Positions 17,874 through 32,617 of a stretch of 40,003 nt of DNA are shown here, piece after piece; within the stretch, counting starts at the first letter, position 1, and every line of letters starts with the position of its first letter. The position numbers and the translations under genes are program-made. Origin of the DNA: Rubellimicrobium roseum (GTDB taxonomy: Bacteria > Pseudomonadota > Alphaproteobacteria > Rhodobacterales > Rhodobacteraceae); contig NZ_VDFV01000036.1 of the NCBI RefSeq assembly GCF_006152145.1, positions 1 through 40,003 of the forward strand, in the 5' to 3' direction. The notes under the pieces are model-generated. The model saw nothing but the letters and a program-made list of their open reading frames with translations. It was not told the DNA's origin and ran no database searches.

Positions 17874-17918
17874 GGTCCGACATCGCGGGGCGGTCCCCGC
17901 CAGAGGGGCCCGGACCCC
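17874..17918 (-). ncRNA. Structured repeat element, copy A (upstream of cydA)
   Basis: The plus strand reads GGTCCGACATC, stem GCGGGG, loop CGGT, stem CCCCGC, then CAGAGGGGCCCGGACCCC. Outer arms (GGTCCG with CGGACC) and the inner 6-bp stem both pair. The flanks are identical to copies B (19236-19279) and C (32571-32617), while the inner stem differs with compensating changes. On the minus strand it is a leader element ending about 52 nt before the cydA GTG. I cannot match it to a named riboswitch. Confidence 0.6.
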
Positions 17919-18014
17919 CGTCGCCCAGGGAGGTGGGAAGGTATGTTCCTTACAGCAAGAGCGAGCCGAAGGGGTGCGACGCCGTGTCCTTAGAATGCTC
18001 GCCGATGGCTGGCA

Positions 18015-19004
18015 TTAATGTGGCCAGATGGCCCAGACATAAAGGACGTAGCCGCCTAGGAGCAGCGCGCCTTCGCCGCGCGTGAGCCTCCGCCCGGTCC
18101 AGAGAAGGAGCAGAAGCAGGACAGAGACGCCGATCATCACCAGACTGTCAAAGCCGGCGATCTCGGGCGGCACGGGCGTAGGCGCAATGAGCGCGGTCAC
18201 GCCGCCGATCCCCAGGATGTTGTAGATGTTGGATCCCAGGATGTTGCCTACCGCCACGTCCGACTGGCGCCGAACCGCCGCGATGGCCGAGGTGGCGAGC
18301 TCGGGCATGGAGGTGCCGGCGGCCACGATGGTCAGGCCGATCACCGTTTCGCTCACCCCCAGGAGCCGCGCGAGGTCGATCGAGGCCCCTACGAAGAAGC
18401 GGGCGCCCAGCACCAGCAGCCCCAGGCCGCCCAGGGCCATGAGCAAGGGTAGAGCCCATCCGAGGGCGCTCCGTGAGCCGTCGGCACCGGGCGTCGTGCC
18501 CGGGTCGAGGCCCTCAAGTGCCTCAGCCTTCTCGAAGGCCGCTGTATGCCCGCCGGCAGCCACCCGCTCCTGACGCCAGGCGAAGAAAAGGTAGGCTGCA
18601 AGAAGTCCGAGCAGCAGGGCGCCCACAGGGCGGTCCAGCATCCAAGTCCAGCCCACCACGACCAGAAGCAGCGCCGTGGCGATGACCAGCACGCCGTCAC
18701 GGCGCAGCGCGGTCGAGGACACGGTCAGCGGGTAGATCATCGCCGCCACGCCCAGGATCACCAGGATGTTGAAGATGTTGGAGCCGACGATGTTGCCCAC
18801 AGCGATCCCCGGTGAGTCCACAAGCGCGGCCTGCACGCTGGTCACGAGTTCGGGCGTGGAGGTGCCGAAGCCCACAACCGTCAGGCCGATGAGGAGCGCG
18901 GACACGCCCAGCCGTTCCGCCAAGCGGACGGCGCCGCGCACCAGCAGCTCGGCTCCCAGGACCAGGAGGACCAGTCCACCCATCAGCGACAGCGCGAGCG
19001 CCAT
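18015..19004 (-). CDS. CaCA-family calcium/sodium antiporter
   Basis: This 329-residue membrane protein has two inverted alpha-repeats: GFGTSTPELVTSVQAAL with NIVGSNIFNILVILG, and AAGTSMPELATSAIAAV with NILGSNIYNILGIGG. The two Glu residues in the PEL motifs and the Gly-Ser-Asn motifs form the ion sites of the YrbG/NCX family. It exchanges Ca2+ for Na+ or H+ across the inner membrane. A basic/acidic cytoplasmic loop (AFEKAEALEGLDPGTTPGAD) joins the halves. AAGGAAAGG precedes the ATG. It is divergent from the Mrp operon and lies upstream of cydAB on the same strand. Confidence 0.92.
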   Translation of the reverse strand: MALALSLMGGLVLLVLGAELLVRGAVRLAERLGVSALLIGLTVVGFGTSTPELVTSVQAALVDSPGIAVGNIVGSNIFNILVILGVAAMIYPLTVSSTALRRDGVLVIATALLLVVVGWTWMLDRPVGALLLGLLAAYLFFAWRQERVAAGGHTAAFEKAEALEGLDPGTTPGADGSRSALGWALPLLMALGGLGLLVLGARFFVGASIDLARLLGVSETVIGLTIVAAGTSMPELATSAIAAVRRQSDVAVGNILGSNIYNILGIGGVTALIAPTPVPPEIAGFDSLVMIGVSVLLLLLLWTGRRLTRGEGALLLGGYVLYVWAIWPH

Positions 19005-30278: not shown

Positions 30279-32527
30279 GCCAGCTCCCTCCCCTTGCTCT
30301 CGGCCAGCGCCCGAACGGCGCGGTGGTCTACCTTGCCGGTGGGCAGCAGCGGTACCTCCGGCACGGTCGCGACGGTTCGCGGCACCACGAGATCGGACAG
30401 CCCATGCTCCCGCACCGCCCTAGCTAGTGCCGGCCGCGTGGCGTCCGCGGCGGTGGTCAGCAGGATGACGCGCTCGCCCCTCTGCCCGTCGGGCAGGGCC
30501 GCGGCGGCGTGCCGATCCTCGGGCCAAAGCCGGGCCGCGAGTTCCTCGACCGCGCCCAAGGCCACCATCTCGCCTGCGACCTTGGCGAAGCGCTTGACGC
30601 GGTCGCGGATGGTCACGAAGCCCTGCGGGTTGATATCGACGACGTCGCCGGTGTCGTACCAGCCGTCAGGCGGAGCCAGGAACCGGCCAGGCGTCTCGGG
30701 CTGGACATAGCCCAGCATGACGTTGGGCCCTTTTACGTGCAGAACGCCGGCCGCGGTGACGCCTGGGACAGGCACGACCCGCCACTGGATCCCCGGCAGG
30801 AGCCGCCCGACGGAGCCCGGCTCGTGATGCATCGGCGTGTTGAGCGCCAGCACCGGCGCCGTCTCGGTCGCGCCGTAGCCCTCGAGGATGCGGATGCCGA
30901 ACCTCTCGGCCCAGAGCGCCCGCGTATCGGGTCGGAGCCTCTCGGCTCCCGCGAAGACATAGCGCAACGACGACATGTCGTAGGGGTGCGCGTGCTTGCC
31001 GTAGCCCGCGAGGAACGTGTCGGCCCCGAACAGGATCGTCGAGCGCGTCCAGTAGAGCGCCTCGGGGATGGTCCGGTAGTGGAGCGGCGAGGGATACAGG
31101 AACAGCGGCACGCCCGAGATCACCGGCAGCACCATCCCCGCCGTCAGGCCGAAGGAGTGGAACATCGGCAGGGCGTTGAACACCTTGTCGCGCGGCGTGA
31201 AGTCGATCCGCGCCCGCACCTGCGCGCAGTTCGCGAGGATGTTGTCGTGGCTCAGCGCCACGCCCTTGGGTGCCCCCTCGGTGCCCGAGGTGAACAGGAT
31301 TGCCGCTGGATCCTTGGGCAGAGGCCGGTGCAGGGCGTGCATCCGATGGGCACGACCGGCGTCCCACAGCCCCCGGAGCTTGGCGCGCCGATCGACCGAG
31401 GCGCGGAGGTCCTCGAGGTAGACCACCTCGACGGCCTGCCCGAGCTCGGCCACCGTCGCCTCGAGCTTGCCCTTCTCCACGAAGCGCCGGGAGGTCAGTA
31501 CGAGCCGCACCCCCGCCAGGCGGCAGGCGCCCAGTACCCCTGCGCTGCCGGCGCTGAAGTTCAGCATGGCCGGCACCCGGCCGACGGCCTGGAGCGCGAA
31601 GAAGGTCACCACGCAGCCCACCGCATTGGGCAGCAGGATCCCCACCCTCTCGCCGAGCCGGGTTCGCTCAGCAAGCTTCCGGCCCAGGATCACCGAGCCG
31701 AGCACCAGGCGATCATAGCAGATCGGGTCCCAGTCCAGGTCCTCGATCCTCGCCTGCCGTCCGCCATGTGCGGCGCGGGCCGCGAGCATCGCCTCGAACA
31801 GCGTCTGGTTGCGCGGCCGCGCCTGGACGGAAAGCTCCGCCAGCATGTCACCGATCTGCGCGCTGCCGCGGCGGTGGCGGTCTCGACCACGCCCCGGCCC
31901 GTCCAGGTTCAGCCGGCGCGGCGCGCCGACCGTGATCGTCACCTTGGGCAGCACGCGGCGGCGCAGGACCCCGCCTAGGGCGCTGAACAGACTGTGCTGC
32001 ACGCCCTCGATATGGATGGGCAGCACGTTGGCCAGGGTCTTGTCGGCCACGAAGGCGGGACCCCCGTAGATCTTCATGAGCCCGCCCGTCTGCGTGAGCC
32101 GGCCCTCGGGGAAGATCATGCATGGCCGGCCTTGCCGGACCTCGTGGATCATGTGCTTGAAGCTCATGGGACTGCCGAAGTCCACGCCGATGGTCCGCAC
32201 GAGGCGCAGCCAGGGCCGGACCCACCAGCGCCGGGCAACGTTCTTGGAGATGGCGAAGGTCGGCAACTCGGGCAGCAGCGTCGCCAAGAGGGGCGCGTCG
32301 AGATAGGACACGTGGTTCGCGACAATGATGAAGCGCGGCCCGGCCTGATGGTAGTTCTCGAGGCCGTGGACTTCGACGCGGAAGAGGGCTTTGAGGAGCC
32401 GGCCCATGAGGCCGCGAAGCCGGTCCTTCGTGTCTCTTGTCTCTGCCGGAGCTTTTTCTTGCGGCCGCTCCAGTTCGAGCTGAGGCTTGACCTCCCGGGC
32501 AGAAACGATTGTTTGCTGGTGCAGCAT
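30275..32527 (-). CDS. aas: Bifunctional 2-acyl-GPE acyltransferase / acyl-ACP synthetase (Aas-like)
   Basis: This 750-residue fusion has an N-terminal PlsC-type acyltransferase with His72-x4-Asp77 (NHVSYLD) and FPEGRLT. A C-terminal AMP-forming ligase follows, with AAILFTSGTEGAPKGVALSH, EGYGATETAP and DGWYDTGDVV. E. coli Aas has the same layout and length (719 residues) and re-acylates lysophospholipids using fatty acids activated on ACP. A ligase Lys lies in the C-terminal GKVDHRA. AGAGGGG precedes ATG 32527, and copy C of the structured element is 44 bp upstream. Its stop overlaps the P-type ATPase start. The gene symbol is by architecture only. Confidence 0.88.
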   Translation of the reverse strand: MLHQQTIVSAREVKPQLELERPQEKAPAETRDTKDRLRGLMGRLLKALFRVEVHGLENYHQAGPRFIIVANHVSYLDAPLLATLLPELPTFAISKNVARRWWVRPWLRLVRTIGVDFGSPMSFKHMIHEVRQGRPCMIFPEGRLTQTGGLMKIYGGPAFVADKTLANVLPIHIEGVQHSLFSALGGVLRRRVLPKVTITVGAPRRLNLDGPGRGRDRHRRGSAQIGDMLAELSVQARPRNQTLFEAMLAARAAHGGRQARIEDLDWDPICYDRLVLGSVILGRKLAERTRLGERVGILLPNAVGCVVTFFALQAVGRVPAMLNFSAGSAGVLGACRLAGVRLVLTSRRFVEKGKLEATVAELGQAVEVVYLEDLRASVDRRAKLRGLWDAGRAHRMHALHRPLPKDPAAILFTSGTEGAPKGVALSHDNILANCAQVRARIDFTPRDKVFNALPMFHSFGLTAGMVLPVISGVPLFLYPSPLHYRTIPEALYWTRSTILFGADTFLAGYGKHAHPYDMSSLRYVFAGAERLRPDTRALWAERFGIRILEGYGATETAPVLALNTPMHHEPGSVGRLLPGIQWRVVPVPGVTAAGVLHVKGPNVMLGYVQPETPGRFLAPPDGWYDTGDVVDINPQGFVTIRDRVKRFAKVAGEMVALGAVEELAARLWPEDRHAAAALPDGQRGERVILLTTAADATRPALARAVREHGLSDLVVPRTVATVPEVPLLPTGKVDHRAVRALAESKGRELA

Positions 32528-32570
32528 TGAAGACCCCTCTCATTGCGCCGCTCTAGGCGGTCGAATGGAT

Positions 32571-32617
32571 GGGGTCCGACATCGCAGCCTCTTGGCTGCC
32601 AGAGGGGCCCGGACCCC
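32571..32617 (-). ncRNA. Structured repeat element, copy C (upstream of aas-ATPase operon)
   Basis: The plus strand reads GGGGTCCGACATC, stem GCAGCC, loop TCTT, stem GGCTGC, then CAGAGGGGCCCGGACCCC. The inner stem differs from copies A and B at three base pairs, all compensated. The outer stem is the longest here, GGGGTCCG with CGGACCCC. On the minus strand the element ends 44 nt before the aas ATG. Its CCCCUCU segment is exactly complementary to AGAGGGG in the aas ribosome binding region. Confidence 0.62.

Follow-up and report, generated by a model that had tools for sequence, protein, structure and literature searches.

The window, by which we mean the whole of contig C81 of Rubellimicrobium roseum (NZ_VDFV01000036.1; 40,003 bases), carries three copies of a small structured element, the terC RNA. 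Copy A lies in the leader of cydAB, which encode cytochrome bd oxidase, copy B in the leader of a gene for a calcium/sodium antiporter of the CaCA family, and copy C in the leader of an operon that begins with an aas-like gene and continues with a P-type Ca2+-ATPase gene (Table 1). The initial annotation of this DNA placed its copies before cydA, before the aas/Ca2+-ATPase operon, and between the antiporter and the divergent Mrp operon. The first two placements are correct, while the copy "between" leads into the antiporter gene, and a search with the family's Rfam model found no terC RNA on the strand of the Mrp operon in the window.

That annotation recognized no named class in the element. 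However, a search against Rfam assigns all three copies to the terC RNA family, RF03067, at 57.9 to 59.6 bits (the gathering score is 39.9 bits), with full-length matches (positions 1–59 of 59) and E-values of 4.8e-8 to 1.2e-7. No other Rfam family was found in the window at gathering scores, and between positions 17500 and 33000 no second family matched even with E-values up to 1. So this is an RNA family that is already known rather than a novel class, and Rfam types it as Cis-reg. The name comes from the TerC genes that it precedes, yet none of the window copies precedes a TerC gene: their first genes are cydA, CaCA, and aas. Other copies in this genome do precede TerC or truncated TerC-like genes.

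The terC RNA has 54 bases and consists of a variable outer stem, an almost invariant asymmetric internal loop, and a variable inner stem. The description of the window copies in the initial annotation holds up well, as three copies are present, with starts that differ by 0–3 bases from those it gave. GTCCGACATC and CAGAGGGGCCCGGACCCC are identical in all three without a single mismatch, and the inner stems differ at three base pairs, each of which is compensated. The pattern of the conserved core matches exactly three times in the window and not once in 100 dinucleotide shuffles, and with fully compensated stems as well, a chance origin is excluded. The covariation is also real in a larger set of 163 copies, no more than eight of which come from this genome, and which were collected with search patterns that permitted all four closing pairs. 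Pairs 6 and 8 of the outer stem and the pairs of the inner stem are paired well above shuffled partners; outer-stem pair 7 shows a smaller excess (133 paired versus 110 in shuffles), and pair 5 is mostly unpaired (paired in 59 of the 163). Thus the element is a folded RNA, as had been claimed, and it is probably cis-regulatory.

The letters first described are, however, the complement of the RNA. The closing pair of the inner stem is G-U in 63 of the 163 copies, G-C in 56, A-U in 44, and A-C in none. Because the 63 G-U pairs would become A-C mismatches on the plus strand, the RNA must be on the minus strand of the window, and every RF03067 match in the window is on the minus strand too. We are nearly certain of the family, the fold, the strand, and the order of the genes. 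We also noticed, by eye, an apparent extra hairpin directly after the terC RNA that is shared by cydA leaders (window 17840-17920 on the minus strand, and loci L007, L013, and L022), with matching changes on both of its arms, again as judged by eye.

Which genes does this RNA precede? A pattern scan of named genomes gave at least 118 loci, and together with whole-genome matches and fetched stretches we assembled 285 sequence-distinct copies, 9 of them from this genome. The names of the target families were backed by Pfam and NCBIfam on representatives. The first assigned gene is of TerC type in 186 cases (TerC 129, DUF475 45, and YjbE 12). Next come CaCA (10), DUF4112 (10), YegS-type kinase (8), TerB (7), BI-1 (5), and Zn-ribbon proteins (5), followed by CydA (4), MnhE (2), NhaA (2), Tim44-like proteins (2), Aas (1), and Ca2+-ATPase (1). 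Four small unnamed clusters account for 16 more, and 26 copies had no assignment. If hits beyond the first gene are counted, then CaCA occurs in 14 of 282 segments. The Ca2+-ATPase occurs at two loci (the window and, by similarity, L248). The gene for MnhE lies directly after a terC RNA at two other loci, L018 and L088. In Qipengyuania gaetbuli (L070, 5134-7713), the terC RNA is followed by nhaA and then by terC in a single gene run. The initially unassigned set includes one TerC-type gene according to Pfam (L238) and two that resemble this type (L245 and L246), along with TerB, DUF533, a YdjM-type protein, a CitMHS-type transporter, and the ATPase inhibitor subunit zeta.

The orientation of the copies bears on whether they might be a DNA repeat. 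Among the 266 copies with at least 600 bases of downstream sequence, 247 have a family-assigned gene that starts on the same strand within 500 bases, and just 1 has an opposite-strand family match, although the reference proteins were drawn from such loci, which favors same-strand hits somewhat.

R. roseum has nine terC RNAs, which is the most among the genomes that we searched. Besides the three in the window, one precedes a TerC gene (contig C132), one precedes a second cydAB (C60), and four form two tandem pairs (C137 and C145; loci L024 and L025), each ahead of a single TerC-like gene truncated by the contig end. The fragment on C137 scores 23.1 bits against a Pfam TerC cut-off of 27.8. 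The tandem copies are 349–372 bases apart, start to start, and possibly they act as a sharper double switch. C145 also has a match to the ALIL pseudoknot (2296-2414, minus strand), which hints at an insertion sequence. RF03067 was found in 13 of 61 relatives, in 67 of the 394 genomes from the same family, and in 52 of the 385 from the class; the three sets are not disjoint, and this genome belongs to all of them. All eight genomes of its genus among the 61 relatives have at least one copy, and no other genome in the three sets has more than four. In the two larger searches, the filters were stricter and no more than 13 first-look candidates were scored in each genome, so weak copies elsewhere may have gone undetected; this genome still gave nine under the same filters. 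In three other genomes (Table 1), two terC RNAs lie back to back on opposite strands, 96–132 bases apart, and each could serve its own divergent gene.

Plasmids carry this RNA as well. Within about 10 kilobases of plasmid pMPPM01 of Methylorubrum populi P-1M (in a stretch of 44,865 bases) there are five copies, which precede a hypothetical protein, FtsH, DUF4112, a zeta-DUF1476-hypothetical-ExoD run, and cydA. NhaA and a calcium/sodium antiporter lie further along the same strand at the DUF4112 locus. After cydA on this plasmid we found only a 140-residue match to CydB (L304, 32126-32545, plus strand), so this cydB may be incomplete. Plasmid pR24_1 of Microvirga terrae has a terC RNA (57.3 bits) before DUF4112; next in line are FtsH, a DedA protein, and a Tim44-like protein. 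Two Azospirillum plasmids have a single copy each, before a DUF4112 gene, and a Haematobacter plasmid has one before a TerC gene. Some copies precede genes without a known role in ion handling, namely an Indioceanicola gene of the amidoligase family and, in Microvirga, a gene for a hypothetical protein.

To our knowledge, the terC RNA is an orphan with no known signal. It was reportedly described, with its function given as unknown, in a comparative genomics survey of 224 candidate RNAs, and we found no paper on it or on its signal among the matches listed in our literature searches. Two known systems invite comparison. Riboswitches for Na+ and Li+ precede nhaA and similar genes, so they have NhaA and Mrp-type targets in common with the terC RNA; however, the window has no match to such Rfam families at gathering scores, and the terC RNA spans TerC, CaCA, and cydAB. 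The alx element, which belongs to the yybP-ykoY family (RF00080), is likewise found before TerC-type genes, and passages in PMC3874183 and PMC9603457 describe its response to alkaline pH and Mn2+. Nevertheless, RF00080 is a separate family with a different gene set in the 20 loci that we compared, and it has no match in the window or elsewhere in this genome.

Our tentative proposal, which falls somewhat short of being probable, is that the terC RNA is a cis-regulatory element that responds to alkaline pH, or to something closely correlated with it, and not to Mn2+ alone. This proposal derives from the target genes, and we favor it because several targets other than TerC are known as alkaline-pH genes in other organisms. 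High pH raises alx, chaA, and atp in E. coli, where cydA, cydB, and nhaA are also tabulated as up-regulated by base under aerobic growth (both from parts of PMC1626474). Alkaline stress induces cytochrome bd, and mutants in bd or DedA are sensitive to alkali (a section of PMC8225787), as are exoD mutants (excerpt of PMC1403797). Mrp itself was discovered by complementing an alkali-sensitive mutant, according to a passage in PMC5703873. Under this proposal, each terC RNA would most likely control the gene just downstream, and its internal loop would report alkaline pH or a closely related condition, for example an alkalinized cytoplasm or a drop in proton motive force. The response would be to raise ion- and proton-homeostasis genes, most likely at translation. 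In this species, the element has multiplied to nine copies, with three of them on the plasmid-like contig of the window.

The length of the leaders suggests that control is at the level of translation. The median distance from the end of the motif to the automatically called start is 76 nucleotides (247 leaders), so there is scarcely space for a terminator. The ribosome site of aas, AGAGGGG, is a good pairing partner for the conserved CCCCUCU, and GAGG occurs in 95 of 165 cases upstream of terC RNA genes and less often, in 83 of 264, upstream of control genes; the overall strength of the ribosome sites is likewise higher. As a general platform, an anti-Shine-Dalgarno loop had to be rejected, as we saw no excess of loop pairing after adjusting for ribosome-site strength and GC content (-0.15 kcal, t = -0.51). 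We also rejected the 3' strand of the outer stem as an anti-ribosome-site sequence, since the pairing is unspecific: z is -1.8 at the native site, and a control window from -34 to -19 gives -2.3. For the 3' half of the inner stem, pairing with the ribosome-site window has a z of -3.4 (0 of 2000 permutations), which base composition may explain; its z in controls is -2.3 at -34 to -19 and -1.0 at +5 to +20. Another candidate that we rejected is a short upstream frame that starts at the conserved AUG of GAUGUCGG. The frames of the genes relative to this AUG are near-random (74, 81, and 87 of 242), a stop before codon 15 is equally common in its frame (56 of 242) and in the other frames (114 of 484), and its median length is 44.5 codons versus 97.5 (with stop-less frames coded as 999); across the 242 leaders we see no sign of a conserved upstream frame.

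A number of observations weigh against an alkaline signal, or at least against our argument for it. We did not find a general expression platform in the terC RNA leaders that we tested. Most of the targets are TerC-type, and this family is tied to Mn2+. For TerB, DUF4112, YegS, Tim44, and Zn-ribbon targets, we know of no role in pH. The targets are also unevenly represented: all four copies whose first gene is CydA are from this genus (two in this genome and two outside it), and beyond the genus cydA follows only the copy on the M. populi plasmid; Aas is a target in this genome and at no other locus of the set; and NhaA, Mrp, and zeta are targets at two or three loci each. For roughly ten copies, no gene on the same strand could be settled on, and at some of these loci (L084, L138, L207, and L256, for example) an opposite-strand frame may be the better candidate. 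The same E. coli genes cydA, cydB, and nhaA are up-regulated by acid under anaerobiosis (also in part of PMC1626474). Two TerC-type genes are under Mn2+ riboswitches in other bacteria, namely meeY of Bacillus subtilis (passage of PMC10550928) and terC of Vibrio parahaemolyticus, along with mneA (passage of PMC13274385), which supports Mn2+ as the signal. Also, the E. coli leaders of alx and mntP respond jointly to Mn2+ and alkaline pH (section of PMC9603457), so it is hard to separate pH from metal by gene content. Among the matches listed from the expression literature on Alphaproteobacteria, including Rhizobium, there was no apparent direct test of the pH reading.

The alternative that fares best is that the terC RNA is a compact alphaproteobacterial counterpart of yybP-ykoY, a Mn2+-sensing riboswitch that turns on TerC-type exporters. 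The dominance of the TerC superfamily among the first assigned genes (186 of 285) fits this idea, as does the ATPase in the window, which is closest to the PMR1 type; PMR1-type pumps can move Mn2+. A Mn-sensing riboswitch of a Streptococcus Mn2+/Ca2+ ATPase is cited in PMC10550928. On the other hand, NhaA, Mrp, cydAB, and zeta are not Mn genes, and the genomes that have both RNAs keep two gene sets apart. RF00080 is matched in 56 of the 385 class genomes (over its cut-off in 42), and the terC RNA is present in 25 of these 56 as well, compared to 7.6 expected (without correction for phylogeny). Since the two co-occur beyond expectation, we rejected the idea that one simply replaces the other. 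Of 20 Mn2+ riboswitch loci from the 25 dual genomes, 14 are before MneA-like (GDT1) genes, 4 are before MntP, 2 are unassigned, and none has a reference match to TerC or DUF475 (the MneA-like and MntP names were confirmed by Pfam on two representatives each). Conversely, none of the 282 segments downstream of terC RNAs (249 of which are at least 1500 bases) contains MneA or MntP. This separation argues that the terC RNA reads something other than bulk Mn2+, and we consider a plain Mn2+ sensor unlikely. The separation of the gene sets may also be compatible with a joint signal of pH and metal, of the kind to which alx and mntP respond.

Somewhat less likely still is a riboswitch for Ca2+ or Na+ that governs ion export. 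CaCA in 14 of 282 segments, the two Ca2+-ATPase loci, BI-1, NhaA, and Mrp would all make sense, but one ion alone does not cover cydAB, zeta, FtsH/DUF4112, and TerC together. We see a similarly low chance that the terC RNA does not bind a ligand and is instead the site of a putative regulatory protein in a response to membrane or proton-motive-force stress. It is a small RNA whose near-invariant internal loop sits on variable stems, as is common in protein sites, and the FtsH, DedA, Tim44-like, BI-1, and TerB targets would suit envelope stress. Against this idea, no candidate for the protein emerged, and no search aimed at one was made. As for a DNA repeat that is mobile or resembles the repetitive extragenic palindromic (REP) type, which the nine copies in one genome might bring to mind and whose REP-like form the initial annotation had raised as the alternative, we dismiss it, given the strand-specific G-U pairing with no A-C at the closing pair, the uniform orientation of 247 of the 266 copies with respect to genes, and membership in an Rfam family of type Cis-reg.

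To return to the alkaline signal, a broader version of that proposal is possible if doubtful: the terC RNA may be a second natural class of alkaline-pH-responsive RNA, with a fold unrelated to alx/yybP-ykoY, that coordinates TerC, Na+/H+ and Ca2+ antiporters, cytochrome bd, inhibition of the F1-ATPase, and quality control of the membrane. It would do so in Alphaproteobacteria and in certain Gammaproteobacteria, for example Pseudomonas, and plasmids may carry multi-copy islands of it for alkali tolerance. If true, this would be a rarity: a second class of RNA linked to pH. What is new here is the gene set beyond TerC, the genome with nine copies, the plasmid islands, and the separation from the targets of the Mn2+ riboswitch. 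The wider targets, this separation, and the five-copy plasmid regulon lead to a specific and testable hypothesis about the signal of the terC RNA.

Table 1. Features of the window, with window coordinates, and back-to-back terC RNA pairs of other genomes, with genome and contig handles.
Feature	Position	Strand	Evidence	Context
terC RNA copy A	17868..17921	-	Rfam RF03067, 59.6 bits	leader of cydAB; 44-base element at plus-strand coordinates 17875-17918
terC RNA copy B	19229..19282	-	Rfam RF03067, 57.9 bits	leader of Ca2+/Na+ antiporter gene; 44-base element at plus-strand coordinates 19236-19279
terC RNA copy C	32567..32620	-	Rfam RF03067, 58.8 bits	leader of aas / Ca2+-ATPase operon; 44-base element at plus-strand coordinates 32574-32617
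cydA, cytochrome bd oxidase subunit I	16433..17821	-	Pfam PF01654, E 1.7e-161	first gene after copy A
cydB	15406..16425	-	Pfam PF02322	second gene after copy A
CaCA-family calcium/sodium antiporter	18015..19004	-	Pfam PF01699; NCBIfam TIGR00367 above cut-off	first assigned gene after copy B
aas-like acyltransferase / acyl-ACP ligase	30275..32527	-	Pfam PF00501 and PF01553; under NCBIfam equivalog cut-offs	first gene after copy C
P-type IIA ATPase, PMR1/SERCA-like (Ca2+/Mn2+)	27495..30278	-	Pfam set; best NCBIfam TIGR01522 (649.9 bits, cut-off 798.3)	second gene after copy C
Mrp Na+/H+ antiporter operon (F, G, B, C, D, A-like subunits)	19320..26356	+	Pfam	divergent neighbor
RepC-like plasmid replication protein	9752..11026	+	Pfam PF03428, PF11800	
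ArdC-like gene	12475-13584	+		
Zeta-toxin-like gene	194-934	-		
Back-to-back terC RNA pair	G437:C2:1489503-1489712			
Back-to-back terC RNA pair	G525:C157:2785-3024			
Back-to-back terC RNA pair	G526:C9:125403-125616			

Because it encodes RepC-like and ArdC-like proteins, the contig of the window may be a plasmid, judging from its gene content, to which the zeta-toxin-like gene also contributes. We could not close it into a circle, as its ends share no identical overlap of 15–399 bases. Just upstream of copy C, on the same strand, are two SPW-repeat membrane proteins (32851-34074, minus strand). Further away, at 3422-6368 on the plus strand, there is a small ubiquitin-like conjugation operon that includes a Metal_CEHH protein and a protein with Prok-E2_C and ThiF domains; PADLOC gives matches to BilB (weak) and BilD, so this is a possible anti-phage system of the Bil type.

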